64,000 nt of DNA from Neisseria elongata subsp. elongata (GTDB lineage: Bacteria; Pseudomonadota; Gammaproteobacteria; Burkholderiales; Neisseriaceae). The stretch covers positions 62,001 to 126,000 of the forward strand of contig NZ_FOPS01000002.1 in assembly GCF_900113545.1 (NCBI RefSeq), written 5' to 3'. The notes beneath the pieces are model-generated. The model ran no database searches. It had not been told where the DNA came from and worked only from the letters and a program-made list of their open reading frames with translations. Every line of letters starts with the position of its first letter. Position 1 is the stretch's first letter. Of the stretch, positions 35,537 through 55,502 are shown piece by piece. The translations under genes were made by a program, and so were the position numbers.

Positions 35537-35745
35537 TTGCCAAGTTGTTGCAATGGCTGATCAAGTTTTACCAATACTGCATCAGCCCGATGATTCCGCC
35601 ACGATGTCGCTATACTCCGACCTGTTCGCAATATGCGTTGGAAGCCGTACGCAAATATGGCGCATTCAAGGGGGGCTGGCTGGCAGTCAAACGAATTGCC
35701 CGCTGCCATCCTTGGGGCGGGCACGGGCATGATCCGGTGCCTTAA
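35533..35745 (+). CDS. yidD: Membrane protein insertion efficiency factor YidD
   Basis: This 70-aa protein has the whole DUF37/YidD pattern: [29 protein letters not shown], then [24 protein letters not shown], with three conserved cysteines. It assists YidC-dependent insertion of inner membrane proteins. It overlaps rnpA by ATGA and precedes yidC, from which it is separated by 226 bases of spacer that hold no supported gene. Confidence 0.95.
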
Positions 35746-35971
35746 ACCGATTCCCGTATCGGATTCGGCCTGCTTCCCGTCATGTTTCAGCCGTACAATG
35801 CAGGCAGGAGGGGAAGAGTGCGGCAGAGTTGGATATTTTGTCCGCATGTTTAAATGCAGTACGCGTTTGCGCGCGGAGTGCAAGAGATTTTAAATACCGG
35901 TGCGCTGTAAAACAGCCGCCTAAATTTTCAGACGGTCTCTCCTTCCGTCTGACGACATACAGGAAAAACCG

Positions 35972-37615
35972 ATGGACATCAAAAGAATGACCGTGTTTTT
36001 TGCTGTTTCCCTGCTGATACTGCTGGGATGGGAAAAAATATTCCCAACCCCGCAGCCCGCGGTTTCAGCCGTGCAGCAAGCCGGACAGCAACAAGCAACC
36101 CCGACTATTCCGGCCGAAACCGGTTTGAGTCCGGCTGTTCCGATTACGGTCAGCACGGATACCGTCAATGCAGTTATTGATGAAAAAAGCGGTGATTTGC
36201 GCAGCCTGACCTTGCTGAAATACGATTCGGCAGAAGATCAGAGCAAACCTTTCACACTGTTTCACGATGGCAAGGACAGCATTTATGTTGCCCAATCCGA
36301 CGTGGTGGATGCGGCCGGCCGCAGCCTGACACAAGGATTGAGTTTTCAAAGTGCGCAAAAGCAATACAGCCTTGAAGGCGACAAAGTCGAAGTCCGCCTG
36401 ACCGCCAACACTGCCAACGGCATCCAGATCGACAAAATCTATACTTTTACCAAAGGCAGCTATTTGGTCGGCATCCGTTTTGACGTGACCAACCGCAGCG
36501 GCAGCCCCATCCGAACCGACGGTTCCTACCGCATCGTCCGCGACGGCAAAGCGCCGGAAGGCCAAGGCTATTTCATGGCCAACTACACGGGGCCGGTGTT
36601 GTACACCCCGCAGGGCGAATTCCAAAAAGTCTCATTCGGCGATTTGGATGACGACTTCAAAGAAGGGCGCGAGCAGGCCGAATACGAGCGTAAAACGCAG
36701 TCCGGCTGGGTCGGTATGAGCCAGCACTACTTCTTCTCGTCTTGGATTCTGCAGCCGAAAGGCGGACAAAGCGTGTGTACCACCGATGCTTGCCGCATCG
36801 ACATCAAACGCCGCAGCGACAACCTTTATTCCGCCGGCGTTATCGTTCCGCAACCCGAATTGGCCAACGGCATGAAGCAGGGCTTCGGTATTTCCCTGTA
36901 CGCCGGTCCGCAAACCACTTCCGCGCTCGGCAAAATCGCCGACAATTTGGAATTGATTAAAGACTACGGCCGCGTACATTGGCCTGCAACCGGCCTCTTC
37001 TGGCTGATGGACAAACTGCACGGCTTTACCGGCAACTGGGGTTGGGCAATCGTCCTGCTGACCATTATCGTCAAAATAGTCCTCTTCCCGCTGAACAACG
37101 CCGCCTATAAATCCATGGCGAAAATGCGCGCGGTCGCACCGAAGCTCGAAGCACTGAAAAAACAATACGGCGACGACCGTATGGCGATGCAGCAGGCTAT
37201 GATGCAGATGTACCGCAGCGAAAAAATCAATCCGCTGGGCGGCTGTCTGCCGATGTTGCTGCAAATCCCGATCTTTATCGGCCTTTATTGGGCGATATTC
37301 AGTTCGGTGGAATTGCGCCAGGCTCCGTGGCTGGGTTGGATTACTGATTTGTCCCGCCATGACCCGTGGTTCATCCTGCCTGTTCTGATGACGGCGACCA
37401 TGTGGTTCCAAACCACACTGAACCCGCCGCCGACCGATCCGATGCAGGCCAAAATGATGAAGATTATGCCGTTTGTCTTCTCGTTTATGTTCTTCCTCTT
37501 CCCTGCCGGCCTGGTGCTGTACTATGTGGTGAACAATCTGCTGACCATCGCGCAGCAATGGTATGTGAACCGCAGCACCGAACAGCAACGTAAAAAAGGC
37601 GAAGTGGTGTCCTAA
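35972..37615 (+). CDS. yidC: Membrane protein insertase YidC
   Basis: This 547-aa Oxa1/YidC insertase places proteins in the inner membrane, alone or with SecYEG. An N-terminal anchor helix (residues about 7-22) is followed by the large periplasmic domain (to about 330), then the conserved five-helix core: TGNWGWAIVLLTIIVKIVLFPL, the MAKMRAVAPKLEALKKQYGDD loop, and MLLQIPIFIGLYWAIFSSVELR. It ends in the usual basic tail. It is the last gene of the rpmH cluster, with a DUS-pair terminator behind it. Confidence 0.96.
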   Translation: MDIKRMTVFFAVSLLILLGWEKIFPTPQPAVSAVQQAGQQQATPTIPAETGLSPAVPITVSTDTVNAVIDEKSGDLRSLTLLKYDSAEDQSKPFTLFHDGKDSIYVAQSDVVDAAGRSLTQGLSFQSAQKQYSLEGDKVEVRLTANTANGIQIDKIYTFTKGSYLVGIRFDVTNRSGSPIRTDGSYRIVRDGKAPEGQGYFMANYTGPVLYTPQGEFQKVSFGDLDDDFKEGREQAEYERKTQSGWVGMSQHYFFSSWILQPKGGQSVCTTDACRIDIKRRSDNLYSAGVIVPQPELANGMKQGFGISLYAGPQTTSALGKIADNLELIKDYGRVHWPATGLFWLMDKLHGFTGNWGWAIVLLTIIVKIVLFPLNNAAYKSMAKMRAVAPKLEALKKQYGDDRMAMQQAMMQMYRSEKINPLGGCLPMLLQIPIFIGLYWAIFSSVELRQAPWLGWITDLSRHDPWFILPVLMTATMWFQTTLNPPPTDPMQAKMMKIMPFVFSFMFFLFPAGLVLYYVVNNLLTIAQQWYVNRSTEQQRKKGEVVS

Positions 37616-37635
37616 TTCGGCATCTGAGTATTGAA

Positions 37636-37675
37636 AGGCCGTCTGAAAACCTGAGCAAAGGTTTTCAGACGGCCT
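37636..37675. terminator. DUS-pair terminator after yidC
   Basis: AGGCCGTCTGAAAACCT pairs with AGGTTTTCAGACGGCCT, loop GAGCAA, followed by TTTTTA. Confidence 0.85.
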
Positions 37676-37928
37676 TTTTATCAAGCGGAATAAGTGATGG
37701 TGCAGCGATTAACTTGTTTCTTCGCAGCGTGGCTTCGTTTGATGTTAAAGAGGATGGTTCTGTAAGGTATCGCCAAACGGAATGAATTTGCCTCCCTTCC
37801 CCCTTCTGCTGTTTGAGGATTTGCCGCTTTGCCTTGATTGTGCGTCATGATGACTGGGGCGGGACGGGAGGCCGTCTGAAAGCGGCGGTTTGTGTTTTCA
37901 ATGCGCTTCGGGTGTTGAGTTTGAGCAA
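37676..37928. other. Intergenic region after the yidC terminator
   Basis: No gene or other structure is seen apart from one single DUS near 37869-37880. Confidence 0.45.
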
Positions 37929-38471
37929 TCAGAAACTTTCATGTTGGTTTGTGCCGGTCAAAGCCGTATCGCTGCCGTCGCCATGCGCGGCAAGCTGCCC
38001 GCGTTTCGCCAAACGGTACCAGCCGAAGAGGCGGTAGAGGCAGAATAGGGCGATGAAGGGCTGGCAGGCGGCGACCAGCAGATAACGCGGGTTGTCGAAC
38101 GATATGGCCGCTTCACCGCCGGCCAGCCGCAGCAGGGCCCAGCCCCACTGCCACACTGAAGCAAGGGAAAAGGCCAGTACGGCCAAGAGGCCGAGTGTGG
38201 CGAATACGCCGACGGGCATGGCTTTGCCGCGAGCCACGGAGCGGTCGAGCCTCAGCAGCATCAGCAGGCCGAACCCGATGCACAATACCATGCCGCCGTT
38301 GGCGACGACTTGGAGGCCGGAAAAAACAATGTCGGGCGATACGGGCAGGCCGTCTGCGGGCAGTGCTTTTTTCTGCCCCGAAGCGACGCTTTGCATCACG
38401 TTCAGTACGAAGGTGTAAATCATGTCGGCCAGTACAATCCATACCGGCAGTAAAAAAGGGAAACGCATCAT
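37929..38471 (-). CDS. Predicted four-helix inner membrane protein
   Basis: The 180-aa protein has four hydrophobic segments at about residues 5-28, 48-71, 88-112 and 132-150, with a short basic motif LDRSVARGKAMP between helices two and three. The overall pattern is reminiscent of DUF2975 membrane proteins, but the match is only by eye. The function is unknown. ATG at 38471 (the second of MM gives 38468). It is divergent from the ArnT-like gene. Confidence 0.65.
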   Translation of the reverse strand: MMRFPFLLPVWIVLADMIYTFVLNVMQSVASGQKKALPADGLPVSPDIVFSGLQVVANGGMVLCIGFGLLMLLRLDRSVARGKAMPVGVFATLGLLAVLAFSLASVWQWGWALLRLAGGEAAISFDNPRYLLVAACQPFIALFCLYRLFGWYRLAKRGQLAAHGDGSDTALTGTNQHESF

Positions 38472-38654
38472 GTCTTTGCTCCGTCAAGGGCGGGCAGTGT
38501 AGCAGAAAGCCCCTGCCTGATTAAGCATGGATTGAAAAAAACGGCAGGCAGGACGGGCGTGCGGTTGTTTTTCAGACGGCCTCCCCGTCATGCCATGCCT
38601 AAGGGGCGCAATTTTGTTACACTACCGCCCGACTTTTACCGGAAACCGATTCTT

Positions 38655-40292
38655 ATGCTGACCTATACCCCGCCGGAGATGCGCGCTGCGCCGCCTACGC
38701 GCGAAAAACCGTGGATATTGCTGCTGCTGGCGTTTGCCTGGCTCTGGCCGGGCGTGTTTTCGCACGATTTGTGGAAGCCAGACGAAATTTGGTTTAACGA
38801 GGCGGTAAACGGCGTATTGTCGGGCGGCAGTTGGTTGCAGCCGCAAGTGCCGGGCAGGCAGGATGGCGGAATGCCGTTTGTTTACGTTTGGCTGGCGGCG
38901 TGGTGTCGCCGGCTGCTGTCGCCTTGGCTGACGGATGCCTATTCGGCGATGCGGTTGGCCAGTGTGCTGTTTACCGCCGTCGGCCTGACGGCCTGCGGCA
39001 TGGCGGGTTTCCATCTGGCGGGACGGCATCAGGGGCGCAGCGTGGTGCTGATACTGATAGGCTGCGCCGGCCTGATAACCGGCGGCCACCTGCTCGGCGG
39101 CGCGTCGGTGCAGTTTGCCGCCGCGGGTTTGTGCCTGTACGGCTTGGCGGTGGCGCGCCGGCGGGCAATTTTTGCCGCGCTGTTGCTGGGCTGCGGCTGG
39201 GCGTTGCTGTCGGTGTCGGCCGGTTGGGCGGTTATGGCGGCATTGATGCTGGCCGCCTGCCTGCTGCCGTTGTTTCCCGTTTGGCGGAGCCGCCGTTTCG
39301 CCGTTTCGCTGGCTGCCGCCTTTGCTTTGGCCGTGCCGTTGGCCGCCGTGTATCCGCTGGCTTTGTATCAGGTTTCGCCCGAGGCGTTTTCAGGGTGGCT
39401 GAACCATCATGTTTTCGGTGTTTTCGGCGGTTTGGCAACTTTTTCCGCCGCCTTCAGCCTGCCCTATTATTTGAAAAACCTGTTGTGGTTCGCCTTTCCC
39501 GCCTGGCCGCTGGCGTTGTGGACTTTCAGCCGCCGCCGTTTTTTAAGCGAAAGCTGGGGCGGACCGACGGTGTTGTGGTTGGCAGCGGTGGGGCTGCTGT
39601 TGAGTGTCGCGCCGCAAACCCATGCCGACAATCTGATTCTGCTGCTGCCGCCTTTGGCCGTGCTCGGCGCGTGCCGTCTCGACAGCCTGCGGCGCGGCGC
39701 GGCGGCGTTTTTCAACTGGTTCGGCATTATGATTTTCGGCCTGTTGGCGGTGTTCCTTTGGATTGGTTTTTCGGCGATGAATTTCGGCTGGCCGGCCAAA
39801 CTGGCCGAACGGTCGGCTTATTTCAGCCCGTATTACACGCCCGAGTTTGATGTTGTGCCCATGCTGACAGCTCTGTTGTTCACACCGTTGTGGCTGTGGG
39901 CGGTTACGCGCAAAAATGTGAAGGGGCGGCAGGCGGTCACCAATTGGGCGGCAGGCATGACGCTGGTGTGGGCTTTGCTGATGACGCTGTTTCTGCCTTG
40001 GCTGGATGCGGCCAAAAGTTACCGCCCGGTGGTGGCGCGTATGGAAGCCGCCGCTCCTGCCGAATTGCGCGAACGCCGTGCCTGCTTCAGCATAGACGAA
40101 ACGGCCGTCCTTGCCCGCGTGTCGTGGCGCGAATACGGCAGCCTGCCCTTCGAAGTCGGCGAATCGGCTTGCGGCTACCGGCTGATACAGGCCAATGCCG
40201 ATGCGGCCGTGCCCGCAGGCTGGCGCGAGGTTTGGCAGGGCGGCAGGCCGCGCAATAAAAACGAACGTTTCCTTTTGCTGCAACGTTTGTGA
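38655..40292 (+). CDS. ArnT-like (GT-C) membrane glycosyltransferase
   Basis: This 545-aa polytopic protein belongs to the ArnT/PMT family, which moves sugars from lipid carriers onto lipids or proteins in the periplasm. The first periplasmic loop has the family acidic motif (HDLWKPDEIWFNEAV), followed by about eleven to twelve membrane helices to residue 440 and a soluble C-terminal tail. The donor and acceptor are unknown. ATG at 38655 is taken; the longer frame from 38532 runs through a DUS. Confidence 0.85.
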   Translation: MLTYTPPEMRAAPPTREKPWILLLLAFAWLWPGVFSHDLWKPDEIWFNEAVNGVLSGGSWLQPQVPGRQDGGMPFVYVWLAAWCRRLLSPWLTDAYSAMRLASVLFTAVGLTACGMAGFHLAGRHQGRSVVLILIGCAGLITGGHLLGGASVQFAAAGLCLYGLAVARRRAIFAALLLGCGWALLSVSAGWAVMAALMLAACLLPLFPVWRSRRFAVSLAAAFALAVPLAAVYPLALYQVSPEAFSGWLNHHVFGVFGGLATFSAAFSLPYYLKNLLWFAFPAWPLALWTFSRRRFLSESWGGPTVLWLAAVGLLLSVAPQTHADNLILLLPPLAVLGACRLDSLRRGAAAFFNWFGIMIFGLLAVFLWIGFSAMNFGWPAKLAERSAYFSPYYTPEFDVVPMLTALLFTPLWLWAVTRKNVKGRQAVTNWAAGMTLVWALLMTLFLPWLDAAKSYRPVVARMEAAAPAELRERRACFSIDETAVLARVSWREYGSLPFEVGESACGYRLIQANADAAVPAGWREVWQGGRPRNKNERFLLLQRL

Positions 40293-40322
40293 AGCGGACA
40301 GACAGATTGAATGGGCAGAAAG

Positions 40323-40354
40323 AGGCCGTCTGAAAACTGTTTTTCAGACGGCCT
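40323..40354. terminator. Bidirectional DUS-pair terminator
   Basis: AGGCCGTCTGAAAAC pairs with TTTTTCAGACGGCCT with a minimal loop, between the convergent ArnT-like gene and msrAB. Confidence 0.8.
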
Positions 40355-40380
40355 CTTTCCGTTCAAACGTTTTATTCCGC

Positions 40381-41958
40381 TTATTTCACTTTGCCCTTCA
40401 ACGCGCCGTAGCCTGCCGCGTCCATTTGTTCCAGCGGGATGAATTTCAAACTTGCGCCGTTGATGCAGTAGCGCAGGCCGCCTTTGTCTTTGGGGCCGTC
40501 GGGAAAGACGTGTCCCAAGTGCGAATCGGCGGCGTGGCTGCGCACTTCGGTGCGGCGCATGTTGTAGCTGAAATCGTCGTGTTCGGTAATGGCGGCGGCG
40601 TTAATCGGGCGGGTGAAGCTCGGCCAGCCGCAGCCGGAATCGAATTTGTCGGCGGAGCTGAACAGGGGTTCGCCGCTGACGACGTCCACATAAATGCCGG
40701 GTTTGAACAGATGGTCGTATTCGTGGCTGAAGGCGTATTCGGTCGCGCTTTTTTGGGTAACTTGGTATTGCTCTTCGGTCAGGATGCGTTTGAGTTCGGC
40801 ATCGCCGGGTTTTTTATATGTTGCCGCGTCGAAGCCTTTGCCTTGCGGGGCGGCTTTGCTTTTGCCCGGCAGCGGTTCGTCGGCTTTGCGGATGTCGATG
40901 TGGCAGTAGCCGTTGGGGTTTTTAATCAGGTAGTCCTGATGGTATTCCTCGGCATCGTAAAAGTTTTTCAGCGGCTCGTTTTCGACGACGAGGGGCTGTT
41001 TGTATTTTTGCTGCTCGCGTTTGAGGGCGGCGGCAATGACGGCTTTTTCGGCGGGGTCGGTGTAGTATACGCCGCTGCGGTATTGCGTGCCGGTGTCGTT
41101 GCCTTGTTTGTTGAGGCTGGTCGGGTCAACGACGCGGAAATAATATTGCAGGATGTCGTCAAGGCTGAGTTTGTCGGCATCGTAGGTGACTTTGACGGTC
41201 TCGGCATGACCCGTGTCGCGGTAGGATACATCTTCGTAGCTCGGGTTTTTCGTTTTGCCGTTGGCGTAGCCGGATACGGCGTCAACCACGCCGTCTATGC
41301 GTTGGAAATAGGCTTCCAAGCCCCAGAAGCAGCCGCCGGCGAGGTAGATGGTGCGCGTGTTCATGATTTTTGAATCCTTTTTCTGTGTGTCGGGTTTGTA
41401 GAACGCGTTTTTCAGACGACCTAAATCGGCATTCGGGTCGCGGATTAACGCCAATGCCTGCGCTTCGTTGATGCTGCCTTTGACGATGCGCTGTACGTCG
41501 CCGTCTTTACCGATTAACGCCCACGAGGGATAAACACTGATATTCAGGCTTTGGGCGATGGTGCCGCCGTTGTCGGTCACGACGGGCAGCTTGGGATAGT
41601 TCAAACCGGCATACCATTTCTGGAAGTCGCCGTCTTTTTTCTCGTGCAGAAAGCCGGGGGACGCGACGGTAATCAGGTTGGCGGAGCCGAACCGCTTGTC
41701 CTGCGCCCATTTTTCGGTTTGCCCCAATTCGGACAAACACAAAGGACACCAGCTCGCCCAGAATTTAATCAGGGTCGGTTTGTCTTTTTTCAAATAAACA
41801 CCGGCGGGGCGGCCTTGCGGCGTTTTCAGTTCGGATAACATTTTCGGCACGGACGCGGCCTCTGCGGGAACGGTGTGGGGCAGCAGGAAGGCCGCGCCGG
41901 CCACGGCCACACCCGTCAGTAGGGCGATTTTCCAACCCGATTTTTTCTGATTTTCCAT
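40381..41958 (-). CDS. msrAB: Trifunctional thioredoxin/methionine sulfoxide reductase MsrAB (PilB)
   Basis: This 525-aa fusion repairs oxidised methionines in the envelope. Residues 1-30 form a signal or anchor. A TlpA-like thioredoxin domain (about 50-180) carries WASWCPLC; an MsrA domain (about 198-355) carries [11 protein letters not shown]; an MsrB domain (about 375-505) has [10 protein letters not shown] and the catalytic segment [12 protein letters not shown]. The thioredoxin part recycles the two reductases. This is the same three-part plan as PilB of N. meningitidis and N. gonorrhoeae (522 aa). A perfect mucosa-dialect DUS lies at 41411-41422 in the linker. Confidence 0.96.
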
Positions 41959-51171: not shown

Positions 51172-51855
51172 ATGGAACTCGTCTTTATTCGTCACGGCCA
51201 AAGCGAATGGAACGCCAAAAACCTCTTCACCGGCTGGCGCGACGTCAAACTGAGCGAACAAGGCATAGCCGAAGCGCAGGCCGCGGGCCGCAAACTGAAA
51301 GAAAAAGGCTACCTGTTCGACATCGCCTTCACATCCGTTCTCACCCGCGCCATCAAAACCTGCAACATCGTTTTGGAAGAGTCCGACCAACTCTTCGTGC
51401 CGCAAATCAAAACCTGGCGGCTGAACGAACGCCACTACGGCCAACTGCAAGGGCTGGACAAAAAACAGACCGCTGAAAAATACGGCGACGAACAAGTCCG
51501 CATCTGGCGGCGCAGCTACGACACCCTGCCGCCGCTGCTCGACCCGGAAGACCCGTTTTCCGCGCACAATGACCGCCGTTACGCGCACCTGCCCGCCGAT
51601 GTCGTTCCCGACGGCGAAAACCTGAAAGTCACGCTCGAACGTGTACTGCCTTTCTGGGAAGACAAAATCGCCCCCGCCATTATCAGCGGCAAACGCGTAT
51701 TGGTCGCCGCCCACGGCAACAGCCTGCGCGCCTTGGTGAAACACATCGAGGGCATTTCCGACGACGACATCATGGGCGTGGAAATCCCCACCGGCCAGCC
51801 GCTGGTGTATCAGTTGGATGACAACTTAAAAGTCTTGGACAAATTCTACCTGTAA
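51172..51855 (+). CDS. gpmA: 2,3-bisphosphoglycerate-dependent phosphoglycerate mutase
   Basis: This 227-aa glycolytic enzyme interconverts 3- and 2-phosphoglycerate. The phosphohistidine motif [10 protein letters not shown] (H8) is followed by [14 protein letters not shown], the loop [14 protein letters not shown] and the second histidine in [14 protein letters not shown]. Length is close to other short GpmA enzymes (228-250). It lies 31 bases behind rnpB and has its own GGAGCAAAC ribosome site. Confidence 0.96.
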
Positions 51856-51915: not shown

Positions 51916-51948
51916 TTTCGACACTTCATTTCTGTAAACGATTTCTGT

Positions 51949-51953
51949 AAACG
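51949..51953. repeat. Left 5-bp target site duplication (AAACG)
   Basis: AAACG immediately precedes the TGT tip of the Mu-like element and recurs immediately after the ACA tip at 55498-55502. Confidence 0.85.
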
Positions 51954-51968
51954 TGTGGGGAGGTGTTA

Positions 51969-51976
51969 GTTTTGTC
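51969..51976 (+). promoter_or_regulatory. Left-end transposase-site motif
   Basis: GTTTTGTC at positions 16-23 from the left tip, identical in sequence and distance to the right end. Confidence 0.6.
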
Positions 51977-52132
51977 ATAGAGTGGTAAGAACAAAAAACG
52001 GGGAAAAATTTAATAAAAACAAAAAAATGGCCGAAAACAGGCCGAAAATCGAAATTGCAAAAAAGCGCGAAAAAACTGCCTATTTTTTAGCAGATTCGCG
52101 CTTTTTTTGTCACAAGAACCATCAGAAAGTCA

Positions 52133-52945
52133 TCAATTACTGATACCGCAGTCCCAGAGGTAGCGGCCGTATATCTCGAAGTAGTGGTCTTCGGAATGGG
52201 ACAAGTCCAGGTCGAAGGTGGGATACAGCCCTTTGTTGGGGTTGTCGCTGATAACGCGGAAAACAGAGGGGGCGATTTTTTGCAGGCGTTTGACCCTTAA
52301 TTCATCGCCCTGTCTGAACAGGTAGATACCTTCGCTCAAATACTCTGCGCAGGCCTGCCAGAGTACCGTGCCGCGGTCAATGATTGTGGGGAACATGCTG
52401 TCGCCTTTGATTCGCGTGCAGAAACAGTTTGCCGGGCGGACGCCCAGATGGTCGAAGAACGAGGCTCTGAACCACATGGCTTCGGTTTCCACGTCCCACA
52501 CGATGCTGCCCGGCCCTGCGCTGGCGAACACGCTTGTGTGGTAGCGCACGGGCACGATGCCGGCGGTACTCTGCCGCGCCGACCATTCCGGATACTCTTC
52601 AATCATCTGCCGCATAGACAACGGCACGGCGGGCAGGCGCGCGTTTTCCCGGCTGTCTGCCCTCTCATTATATATAGGCTTTGCCTCAGGCTTCCCGCTG
52701 CGGGCGGCCTTTTCTTGCAGCAGTACATCGAGCACGCCTTTTTCTTTTAATTCCTCAATGACATAGTTTGGAATTTCATAAAGCGTTTTAATTCCCTTAG
52801 GGCCGCCTTTTCCTGAAACATGCACGCAGCCCCAATTCTCGCGCTTTGCCTTACCGGCTATTCCTCTATCACTCCTTGGCAGTGATTTCAATTCGTACTG
52901 TTCAACCAATTCAACCAGTTCATCGATTCCAAATTTCAAGCCCAT
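52133..52945 (-). CDS. Mu-like phage repressor (HTH_Mu plus S24 peptidase)
   Basis: This 270-aa protein has a two-part repressor plan. The N-terminal domain (about 20-60) is of the Mu-type winged helix (LPRSDRGIAGKAKRENWG, then GKGGPKGIKTLYEIPNYVI). The C-terminal S24/LexA-like peptidase domain (about 130-265) has the serine in IKGDSMFP (S183) and the partner lysine in LRVKRLQ (K219), 36 residues apart as in LexA, so induction by RecA-stimulated self-cleavage is likely. It is the leftmost gene, reading outward, as Mu c does. It is apparently intact. Confidence 0.88.
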   Translation of the reverse strand: MGLKFGIDELVELVEQYELKSLPRSDRGIAGKAKRENWGCVHVSGKGGPKGIKTLYEIPNYVIEELKEKGVLDVLLQEKAARSGKPEAKPIYNERADSRENARLPAVPLSMRQMIEEYPEWSARQSTAGIVPVRYHTSVFASAGPGSIVWDVETEAMWFRASFFDHLGVRPANCFCTRIKGDSMFPTIIDRGTVLWQACAEYLSEGIYLFRQGDELRVKRLQKIAPSVFRVISDNPNKGLYPTFDLDLSHSEDHYFEIYGRYLWDCGISN

Positions 52946-53236
52946 TTCAGTTCCTAACTTAGTTTGAAAGTACCGAACAAAGTTGCGAATTTATATATTT
53001 ATATAAATCATCGATTTAATTATTTTCTTGTTCGGAAGTTGCGAATTTAGTTGCGAACAAGTAGTTCGTAACTTATACTGTCCACAACTTGATAAGTCAA
53101 ATTATAAACGACTTATAAACCGCTCTTTAACAATTTGGACAAAAGCCGAGAAAAGTAGATAAGAAGTAAGAAGCAGTGTTTTAAGACTGCTTAACAGGCC
53201 GTCTGAAATACGGACGGCCGATTAAGCTGTTTTTAA
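52946..53236. promoter_or_regulatory. Early control region with operator repeats
   Basis: This A/T-rich region lies between the repressor and the deleted early genes. AGTTGCGAA occurs at 52981-52989, 53037-53045 and 53049-53057, with an inverted one-mismatch copy TTCGTAACT at 53065-53073. CCGAACAA (52973-52980) faces TTGTTCGG (53029-53036). TTGCGAAC/GTTCGTAA forms a palindrome at 53051-53071. It ends with a TTTAAAGGAG ribosome site (53233-53241) whose gene is missing. Confidence 0.65.
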
Positions 53237-53442
53237 AGGAGTACGCACAAAAGCGAAAACGTCACCCTGCCTGTCGCCGACCAATACGCCCTGCCGCGCG
53301 CCGAATTGGGACAAATCTGGCAAATCCAAGAACCGTCGGGTAACTGGCAGGGCACGGTCACCGGCGTTACCCTCAACGTCGACATCGAAAACGACGCCCC
53401 CGTCGTCATGCAGACCGTTACCATCGACCGCTACTTGGGTTA
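53237..53442 (+). pseudogene. 3' fragment of a phage gene
   Basis: An open frame without any start codon encodes about 67 residues (ENVTLPVADQYALPRAELGQ onward, ending TVTIDRYLG). It is coherent protein sequence with high-GC codon use, unlike the A/T-rich DNA just before it. It looks like the tail of a late prophage gene, joined by the internal deletion to the orphan early ribosome site. A variant DUS overlaps its end. Confidence 0.7.
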
Positions 53443-53475
53443 GGCTGTCTGAAAAGGCCGTCTGAAAGGAAAAAC

Positions 53476-53703
53476 ATGAACCTCTACCGCCAGCTTACCG
53501 ACCTGATGAAACGCGAAAGCCGCGCCGCCGCCAAAATCACCGCCTCCCTCGGCGGCGGCACATGGGAAGCCGAAACGCAAAGCGGCCGCACAGTCATCCT
53601 GCGCGGCCGCGGCGAAACGGGCAAACGGTTTTTTTACGACGCCCATACCGGCCAAATCCTCGCCCCCGCCCCCGATTTGGACATGACGGATATTGCCGTG
53701 TGA
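53476..53703 (+). CDS. Small prophage protein, 75 aa
   Basis: A compact protein (MNLYRQLTDLMKRESRAAAK, then GGTWEAETQSGRTVILRGRGETGKRFFYD-type beta strands). It is unknown but coherent, and typical of small late genes of Mu-like Neisseria prophages. Its ribosome site AAAGGA is formed by the end of a DUS at 53455-53466, six bases before the ATG. No membrane segment or catalytic motif is visible. Confidence 0.6.
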   Translation: MNLYRQLTDLMKRESRAAAKITASLGGGTWEAETQSGRTVILRGRGETGKRFFYDAHTGQILAPAPDLDMTDIAV

Positions 53704-53912
53704 AGTGAAGCGGAGAAGGACGGGCGGGATTGTTTGGAAGCCTAGAATGGGGATATTGGAACAAGAAGAGAGGAATATTTGAAGAGGGACGGCGACGCGG
53801 AGGTGATGGGACACCGCCGCGCCAGCCAAGCAGGACAGGCTGCATTGACTTCGAGGCCGTCTTGTCTGTACAGACGGGCGGGATTGTAATCAAACCGTAA
53901 GGAAATGCAAAC

Positions 53913-54020
53913 ATGTACCGCGAATTGCGTTGCACAGCCTGCAACAAACTGTTGGGAAAAGGCAGCGGCACAGTGGAAATCAAATGCTGCCGCTGCAAAA
54001 CCGTCAACCGTTTCAACTGA
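53913..54020 (+). CDS. com: Com-like zinc-binding translational activator, 35 aa
   Basis: This tiny protein, MYRELRCTACNKLLGKGSGT and on, has CxxC at residues 7/10 and 25/28, the zinc-finger plan of Mu Com (C6, C9, C26, C29). In Mu, Com binds the mom messenger and exposes its start for translation. Here the next genes are methyltransferases instead of mom, so Com may control them (inference). ATG at 53913 follows GTAAGGAAATGCAAAC. Confidence 0.85.
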   Translation: MYRELRCTACNKLLGKGSGTVEIKCCRCKTVNRFN

Positions 54021-54092
54021 TTTTTAACAGAGTGCCGTGAGCACCGTATTTTTTTCAACAGAGCCGCCCGACGGCCTTAGCGAAAGGAAAAT

Positions 54093-54445
54093 ATGGATGC
54101 GAACGCACCCTCAAAACCCACCGTCGGCAGCCTGTTCGCAGGCATCGGCGGCTTCGACCTCGGTTTCGAGCAGGCAGGATTCGCAACCGCGTGGCAGGTC
54201 GAAATCGACGACACCAACCGCGCCGTCCTCGCCGACCGCTTCCCCCATGCCAAACAACTGCGCGACGTGCGCACCTGCCTGCCCGACTTGTGGCGCACAG
54301 ATGTCATCGTCGGCGGCTTCCCCTGCCAAGACGTCTCCATGGACTGGATGAGGCCGACGCTGCGGAAGCTCGGGCTGCGGGAAACGCCGTCTGCCCGCAA
54401 GTCGCCCGCTGGATTGCCGAAAAATTCATCCCAACCTTCCGATAA
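54093..54445 (+). pseudogene. Internally deleted C5-cytosine DNA methyltransferase
   Basis: The first about 85 residues are the start of a C5-cytosine methylase: motif I GSLFAGIGGFDLGFEQAGF and motif IV VGGFPCQDVS with catalytic C78. Directly after (near 54341) the DNA jumps to the very end of such an enzyme: AAGNAVCPQVARWIAEKF, motif X, readable only in another frame ending at 54445. Motifs V-VIII and the target-recognition domain are missing. The in-frame product (118 aa, ending 54449) cannot methylate. Confidence 0.85.
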
Positions 54446-54484
54446 ATAAAACAAAAGGCAGAGCACCGCGAGTGCCTGCCGCAT

Positions 54485-55339
54485 ATGACAAAAACAAACC
54501 ACCATACCAAAGCCCCGCTGCCCTTCGTCGGGCAGAAACGACACTTTATAAAACACTTCAAAGCCGCCTTGGGCAACATCCCCGACGACGGAGCAGACTG
54601 GACGGTTATCGACGTCTTCGGCGGCAGCGGCCTTCTGGCACACGTTGCCAAACGCACCAAACCCGCCGCCCGCGTCATATATAACGACTTCGACGGCTAC
54701 GCCGACCGCCTGCGAAGCATCCCCGACACCAACCGCCTGCGTGACAGACTGGCCGCGATATTGGACAACAAGCCGCGTGAAAAGAGACTGGACAAAGACA
54801 TCAAGTCCGCCGTTATCGCCGCCATCGAAAACTTCGACGGCCGCAAAGACCTCAACTGCCTGCGCTCATGGCTGCTGTACAGCGGCAAAGAAGCTCCGAC
54901 GCTCGAACACCTATATAAGGAGACCATGTACAACTGCCTGCGCCGCAGCCCGTATCCCGAAGCGGCGGACTATCTGGACGGCCTCGAAATCACCGCCGAA
55001 TCATTCGAGACCCTGCTGCCCCGATACGCAGGACGGGAAAACACCCTGCTGGTACTCGACCCGCCCTACGTCTGCACCCAGCAGGGCATGTACGCCAACA
55101 AGGCTTATTTCGGCATGATTCCCTTCCTGATTCTGACCGCGATGGTGCGGCCGCCCTTCATCTTCTTCAGCAGTACCCGCAGCGAGTTCGCCGCCTACCT
55201 CGACTACCTGCGGCGGCACCGCCCGCAGGAATGGGCGAAATGGGAGGGCTTTGAGCATGTCAAAATCACCGGCGGCATCTCCAAAACCGTCCGCTATGAG
55301 GACAATATGATTTACCGATTCACTCCCGAGCAGGCATAA
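54485..55339 (+). CDS. N6-adenine DNA methyltransferase (D12/Dam-like)
   Basis: This 284-aa phage-borne methylase appears complete. It has motif X-like PFVGQKRHFIKHF at the N terminus, SAM motif I VIDVFGGSGLLAHVA, and catalytic DPPY at D192 (LLVLDPPYVC). It would protect phage DNA from restriction or mark host DNA; the recognition sequence is unknown. It stands 36 bases behind the broken cytosine methylase and downstream of com, the position of mom in Mu. A terminator hairpin follows at once. Confidence 0.87.
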   Translation: MTKTNHHTKAPLPFVGQKRHFIKHFKAALGNIPDDGADWTVIDVFGGSGLLAHVAKRTKPAARVIYNDFDGYADRLRSIPDTNRLRDRLAAILDNKPREKRLDKDIKSAVIAAIENFDGRKDLNCLRSWLLYSGKEAPTLEHLYKETMYNCLRRSPYPEAADYLDGLEITAESFETLLPRYAGRENTLLVLDPPYVCTQQGMYANKAYFGMIPFLILTAMVRPPFIFFSSTRSEFAAYLDYLRRHRPQEWAKWEGFEHVKITGGISKTVRYEDNMIYRFTPEQA

Positions 55340-55340
55340 C

Positions 55341-55365
55341 AAAAGGGGCTGGCTGCCCCTTTGTT
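55341..55365 (+). terminator. Terminator after the adenine methyltransferase
   Basis: AAAGGGGC pairs with GCCCCTTT around TGGCT, starting three bases after the stop codon. Confidence 0.75.
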
Positions 55366-55474
55366 CCCACGCTACACGAGCCAAGCAGGAATATGGATAA
55401 AACGGGAGGAATTTTGCGCGGGTTTTGTCATGGGTGATAAAGGTGGGGGTGTGACAAAAAAAACGCAAAACAGG

Positions 55475-55482
55475 GACAAAAC
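55475..55482 (-). promoter_or_regulatory. Right-end transposase-site motif
   Basis: GACAAAAC, the complement of GTTTTGTC, at positions 16-23 counted inward from the right tip at 55497. Confidence 0.6.
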
Positions 55483-55497
55483 GCCCGCGACGTTACA

Positions 55498-55502
55498 AAA
55501 CG
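55498..55502. repeat. Right 5-bp target site duplication (AAACG)
   Basis: It matches 51949-51953 and directly follows the ACA tip of the element. Confidence 0.85.

Follow-up and report, generated by a model that had tools for sequence, protein, structure and literature searches.

A natural 3.5-kb mini-Mu in Neisseria elongata: probable remnant of a Mu-type prophage with both ends and its target duplication

Mini-Mu elements are known as laboratory tools, and engineered mini-Mu and mini-D3112 are described as retaining transposition capacity after removal of lethal phage functions (PMC8705779). In Neisseria, the Mu-like prophages Pnm1, Pnm2 and MuMenB/NeisMu1 of N. meningitidis, likened here by their description, are mostly defective, and internal deletions in neisserial prophages are mentioned in general terms; the available portions of these accounts contain no two-ended 3-kb form (PMC3898611, PMC9778887). 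The 64,000-nucleotide stretch of Neisseria elongata subsp. elongata analysed here (the window, meaning the whole stretch) carries an element of 3,544 bp at positions 51954-55497, read directly and rechecked by script, which is very probably a young, internally deleted Mu-type transposable prophage, immobile alone and perhaps mobilisable in trans. It is a deleted derivative and not a complete Mu-type member, since DDE transposase and MuB-type ATPase are absent from it and the genome has only sister fragments. We regard it as a well-formed natural mini-Mu of a known kind, and the presence of three such elements in one genome is more notable than that of one.

Ends, duplication and a full-length relative

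Comparisons were made with a genus set of 46 genomes (one per species, including the window's own, a draft of 23 contigs) and with a wider set of 59 relatives, 35 of them in the genus. Below, G000 is the window's own genome, other G labels are relatives, C stands for contig and L for a fetched locus.

A perfect 5-bp duplication, AAACG, borders the element on both sides, the left tip reads TGTGGGGAGG from 51954, the right end finishes in ...GACGTTACA (last base 55497) and GTTTTGTC occupies positions 16-23 counted from either tip. The AAACG flanks and the paired inner sites had been pointed out in a preliminary description of this DNA, and both direct reading and script find them there. TG...CA termini together with a 5-bp target duplication are expected of a Mu-type insertion, and the element has both. 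The features concerned are as follows.

51949..51953, no strand: left copy of the target duplication, AAACG (a further AAACG at 51936-51940)
51954..52153, + strand: left phage end, tip TGTGGGGAGG, with TTTTGTCA sites at 17 (51970-51977) and 152 (52105-52112)
55298..55497, - strand: right phage end, tip TGTAACGTCGCGGGC, with three TTTTGTCA-like sites, one at 17 that has 1 mismatch, one at 39 and one in inverted orientation at 68
55498..55502, no strand: right copy of the target duplication, AAACG (permease stop codon 3 bases further on)

The two-ended elements (4/4) agree in the placing of exact TTTTGTCA sites, which lie 17 and 152 in from the left tip and 39 in from the right, and the count at each of the eight ends was matched by 0/500 single-base shuffles. 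A 25-base left-end pattern (<=3 mismatches) occurs at five places in 3/46 genus genomes (its reversed control at none in the 46), and a right-end pattern (<=2 mismatches) at ten places in 7/46, with one control match. The left ends in G000 (three, namely the window element and two sisters on contigs C10 and C4) and in G023 (one) are each paired with a right end, and the 5-bp duplication around each pair is perfect (4/4); for the fifth, in G067, no right end was found within the 60 kb read.

The G023 element, in a Neisseria congener, is a full-length Mu-type prophage (C1:143419-184691, 41,273 bp) with its own 5-bp duplication, TCCGC, and with transposase (712 aa) and MuB-like ATPase (phrog_296) genes that are both open. 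Its left tip is identical to that of the window element at 24/25 bases, and because left tip, 5-bp duplication and end-site spacing are shared, the ends of the window element can be regarded as real, which is how the alignment with a full-length related prophage, a check proposed in the preliminary description, turned out. The parts retained correspond, collinearly, to about 1-1371, 37228-39708 and 40201-41273 of the G023 prophage, and the pieces of at least 94 bp common to both are 68-76% identical. What is missing, about nine tenths of the DNA, amounts to one block of ~35.9 kb, which held the early operon, the transposase, the MuB-like gene, the head genes and nearly all tail genes, plus ~0.5 kb. 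A claim of short microhomology at the deletion points was dropped, exact points being unobtainable from a relative that is ~70% identical.

Matches to the G023 transposase occur in 14/46 genus genomes, and exceed 50% identity only in G023, G067 and the own fragments of G000. Three viral contigs of 40.6-44.9 kb (L117, L118 and L120) encode transposases 94-100% identical to that of G023, the one at 100% being probably G023 itself, because its right flank is the same. Across the collection of viral contigs, the right-end pattern had two matches and the left-end pattern no exact one, perhaps as these contigs stop short at the left.

Gene content, sister elements and repressors

Between its ends the window element keeps a control region on the left and modification genes on the right, with little in between.

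52133..52945, - strand: repressor, 270 aa, open; C-terminal Peptidase_S24, CI-like
52946..53145, no strand: operator-like region with four copies of AAGTTGCGAA on either strand (<=1 mismatch); none in the C10 sister, one in the C4 sister
53118..53232, + strand: early-operon leader with boxA-like GCTCTTTAACAATTTGG and a DUS-type hairpin (boxA and DUS being labels that we assume); the boxA-like part is present in the four related elements compared
53232..53243, no strand: deletion junction at which ~35.9 kb of the G023 prophage is missing, approximate and not base-exact
53243..53443, + strand: 3' remnant of a tail gene that maps collinearly to G023, with a weak match to phrog_6079 (E 0.0046)
53476..53703, + strand: 75-aa phage open reading frame (ORF), full length in phrog_5076, a family with no assigned function
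53913..54020, + strand: Com, 35 aa, zinc ribbon (PF10122; phrog_13819, gpCom), with a counterpart in G023
54093..54449, + strand: broken C5-cytosine methyltransferase, with a ~0.5-kb internal deletion at about 54335-54341
54485..55339, + strand: D12-type adenine methyltransferase, 284 aa, open, with FGGSG and DPPY motifs (phrog_56)

The preliminary description had proposed a natural mini-Mu anatomy, and its elements (ends, duplication, repressor on the left, com and modification on the right, no transposase) are all seen, the 270-aa frame with its Peptidase_S24 domain being the repressor that it had placed at the left end. Two of its statements need trimming. That com and DNA modification survive on the right holds for Com, which scores 31.1 bits against PF10122 (cut-off 22.9) and in NCBIfam exceeds the cut-off for a generic zinc finger only, and for the open D12 gene, whose product is 62% identical to the G023 copy and scores 20.6 bits with Pfam D12, just below the cut-off of 22; it does not hold for the cytosine methyltransferase, which has lost ~0.5 kb. 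That everything in between is gone applies to the early genes, transposase, head and most of the tail; a tail stub and the 75-aa ORF persist. Mom had no match among the right-end frames scanned, and both modification genes there fit DNA methyltransferase families. As for the leader, CTTTAACAATTTGG, boxA-like, is conserved at the same place in L010, L011, L041 and L143, upstream of early genes, and is trailed by a DUS-word hairpin in most elements compared.

Each of the two further two-ended, shrunken elements of G000 has a perfect duplication and an open repressor. The C10 sister (3,230 bp, duplication ACAGG) consists of the repressor, a Ner-type repressor ORF (phrog_769, which we take to be Ner), the N-terminal part of a MuA-like transposase and the end of a D12 gene. 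Its transposase part covers the first ~278 residues of the MuA-like protein, and the last part of the D12 gene comes next; one ~38.3-kb deletion suffices for this, at the resolution of the G023 mapping. The C4 sister (6,968 bp, duplication CTTTT), which comprises repressor, MuA fragment and portal and tail fragments, requires several deletions relative to G023. Three motifs were sought that we take to belong to the transposase catalytic core; the C10 fragment has none of them and the C4 fragment two. Both MuA fragments are open, as are the portal and tail fragments of C4, and 20/32 differences between the two MuA fragments lie at third codon positions (gapped alignment; 39 mismatches ungapped). 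Because the fragments are open and third positions are in excess, it is probable that their divergence took place in functional phages and that their truncation is recent. The open 297-aa frame of the C10 sister (L010:10114-11007) represents only the N-terminal, DNA-binding part of a transposase, and might in principle be a competitor for phage ends.

Searches of G000 gave no full-length Mu-type transposase; with the G023 protein as query they gave the two sister fragments and three weak matches to repressor N-termini. Full-length transposase-family matches on C7 and C10 were considered as a possible helper and rejected, since they sit in operons that are Tn7-like (L058:3470-7932 on C7 and L063:33-3480 on C10), with TnsA-like, Mu-type transposase and TniB-domain genes and, in the C7 operon, TniQ; the stretches fetched around both contain no Mu-type ends. 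Beside the C7 operon lie what are presumably a ComM-like fragment and large GTPase-like genes.

The three repressors of G000 are 65-67% identical in their C-terminal halves and 34-38% in their N-terminal halves. In the 200 bp upstream of each, a 10-mer recurs in 3-4 copies (<=1 mismatch), AAGTTGCGAA in the window element, ATCTTGGAAA in C10 and GTGGACTACT in C4, at counts reached by 1/100, 4/100 and 0/100 single-base shuffles, respectively. Neither the C10 nor the C4 motif occurs in the remaining four upstream regions compared, and a single near match to the window motif is present in C4; the regions in G023 and G067 have still other motifs, the G023 signal being as weak as that of C10 (4/100). 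Since the N-terminal halves diverge and each adjoins a different repeated motif, the comparison suggests three immunity specificities and hence heteroimmune phages, which would explain how three of them could enter one genome. In the 46 genus genomes the window repressor has five strong matches (E below 1e-80), which are the five left-end elements, three of them in G000, and 16 further weak ones (E 2e-16 to 1e-10) restricted to the C-terminal part.

Origin and meaning of the shrunken prophages

The preferred reading, a young deleted prophage, implies the following course of events. A Mu-type temperate phage would have transposed, with a 5-bp stagger, to a site next to the permease gene, and its middle would then have been lost by illegitimate recombination, presumably recently, given that gene fragments in the sisters still read open. 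The resulting element should be unable to move alone. Its repressor is probably still made, and would occupy the operator repeats of the element and silence an incoming phage that shares its immunity type, while the ends should remain substrates for a matching transposase brought by a superinfecting relative. The two sisters would have taken a similar path with other deletions.

Several points weigh against this reading. (i) The outermost right TTTTGTCA-like site of the window element has one mismatch and its right tip equals that of G023 at just 20/25 bases, so that the function of its ends, judged from the sequence, is not certain. (ii) G000 has four weaker transposase-family matches, two of which overlap the sister repressors, the others being fragments on C9 and at C10:335331 that were covered by the end scan of L064 and L065 alone. 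(iii) The compared genomes are of other species than the window's. (iv) Deletion in place is not distinguishable from insertion of an already deleted copy. (v) The empty site is visible on the permease side only, in 3/29 relatives. (vi) The element's own left flank and two of these three relatives have another AAACG a few bases further left, so that the word alone does not make the junction unique. (vii) A permease near gpmA was found in none of the 29 relatives' loci (flanks <=1.5 kb, some shorter).

The last three points concern the insertion site, between a permease-like gene and a phosphoglycerate-mutase-like gene (51172-51855) that, with the preliminary description, we take to be gpmA. 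Both genes have matches in 46/46 genus genomes (28 bases only for gpmA in G020), and each neighbour search covered 29 relatives among the matches listed (30 loci including the own one) of 45-46 matching genomes. In G027, G031 and G029, whose permeases are 94-95% identical to the window's, an uninterrupted AAACG is separated from the permease stop by just three bases, and there is no element; in the remaining 26/29, including G025 (permease 95% identical), the adjoining sequence differs. The expectation that close relatives would join gpmA and permease through a single AAACG is thus borne out on the permease side in three relatives, the gpmA-permease junction itself being absent from the 29 loci. 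Similarly, dinB beside queH, the empty site of the C10 sister, was not found in 29 relatives' loci (L174 having only 229 bases), nor was either next gene beside the FKBP-type gene for the C4 sister. These gene-order searches are uninformative rather than negative, because gene order has changed in the relatives.

Among the alternatives, selection on repressor cassettes fares best, yet we consider it unlikely. Each repressor would guard against phages of a different immunity group, with the window methyltransferase as an added benefit. An open repressor with its upstream region persists in 3/3 elements, most of whose other phage genes have disappeared or been disrupted, the divergent N-terminal halves each come with their own upstream motif, three of the five strong repressor matches in the genus set are in this genome, and some congener CRISPR-type spacers match phages related to these elements. 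However, other fragments are open too, so that open repressors require no selection, and genes next to the ends survive internal deletion by default. The retention of both ends is likewise weakened as a sign of selection, because related elements elsewhere have lost an end and the cases are too few.

The spacer evidence comes from 122 spacers taken from four loci (L151 and L043 overlap partly and are probably one array). Two spacers match viral contigs L117 and L118 at 34/34 bases and one matches L117 at 31/32; another has four targets, including G023, at 30/32, and G023 is also matched by one at 21/21 and one at 27/30, other matches, of 15-16 bases, being likely chance. The three shrunken elements have no match among these 122 congener spacers, and make up a small share of the targets. 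The G023 prophage itself lies within a CRISPR-type array, as judged from repeats on both sides (L041:749-919 and L043:2392-4700), and in G017 an array of the same repeat as in G023 is immediately adjacent to a Mu-like right end (L051:5671-8001). G000 has seven matches to the CRISPR-type repeat, on the - strand, and 26/46 genus genomes have some; spacers in G000 might target the deleted parts of the prophages.

A bolder version, somewhat less probable still, is that the three heteroimmune mini-Mu form a standing immunity array, which would protect against complete relatives and be movable by them, and whose deletions may be driven by CRISPR targeting of the lost middles. Repeated infection by transposable phages would then leave behind elements that have two ends but no transposase, and whose open repressors differ in specificity.

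That the mini elements are helper-dependent satellites, which a complete phage would replicate and spread on co-infection in the manner of engineered mini-Mu, appears quite improbable. The mini elements do have both ends, with the spacing of the sites conserved, as well as the left control region, and full-length relatives exist (G023 and the viral contigs of 40.6-44.9 kb), but neither deletion junction of the window element has a spanning match in the 59 relatives, and the left-end pattern reveals no second copy or other two-ended mini form in the 45 other genus genomes. Moreover, no helper was found in G000, the three elements differ in their deletions (the 7-kb one having several), and an end is missing from the relics of other species. 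In G067, a half prophage (L143:2783-6772) has left end, repressor, HTH gene and transposase to residue 612, followed by another gene, presumably phospholipase-D/cardiolipin-synthase-like, and contig C1 has a 2-mismatch match to the right end; G019 has a right end only. The end scan also found right ends without an identified left end in G017 and G014 (the latter possibly misassembled) and one right-end match in G001. A plain relic is the simplest reading, mobilisation by a helper being possible but unsupported. An assembly artefact or chance ends can be all but dismissed in spite of the draft state of the genome (23 contigs), as the three elements sit on different contigs, have different flanks and all show a perfect duplication, and the left-end control gave 0 in 46.

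Comparison with known systems

The closest relative is the G023 prophage, which shares with the window element the left tip, the 5-bp duplication, the TTTTGTCA spacing and the gene order at both ends, and differs in its 41.3 kb and its open transposase and MuB-like ATPase. Among named phages, those of the DMS3 type from Pseudomonas match best by transposase (DMS3, MP22 and H70, 39.0-39.4% identity over 98%); they are kin of D3112 and have another host. Haemophilus phage SuMu likewise has a D12-type methyltransferase at its right end (35543-36358 of 37151, 51% identity), and is absent from the four phage records matched by the DNA of the window element. A search of the open-access literature found neither a set of natural two-ended mini-Mu elements nor any transposable-phage satellite, which is a weak negative.

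In conclusion, a form known as a laboratory tool is met here cleanly in nature; the type of the parent phage is identified, and one genome carries three such elements. The case opens two testable questions, that is, whether relics of transposable phages serve as immunity cassettes and whether complete phages mobilise them. Should both answers be no, these elements are still a record of how Mu-type prophages shrink while both ends are retained. Engineered mini-Mu and mini-D3112 were made in the laboratory, whereas the window element is natural, lacks a transposase and is known from its sequence alone.

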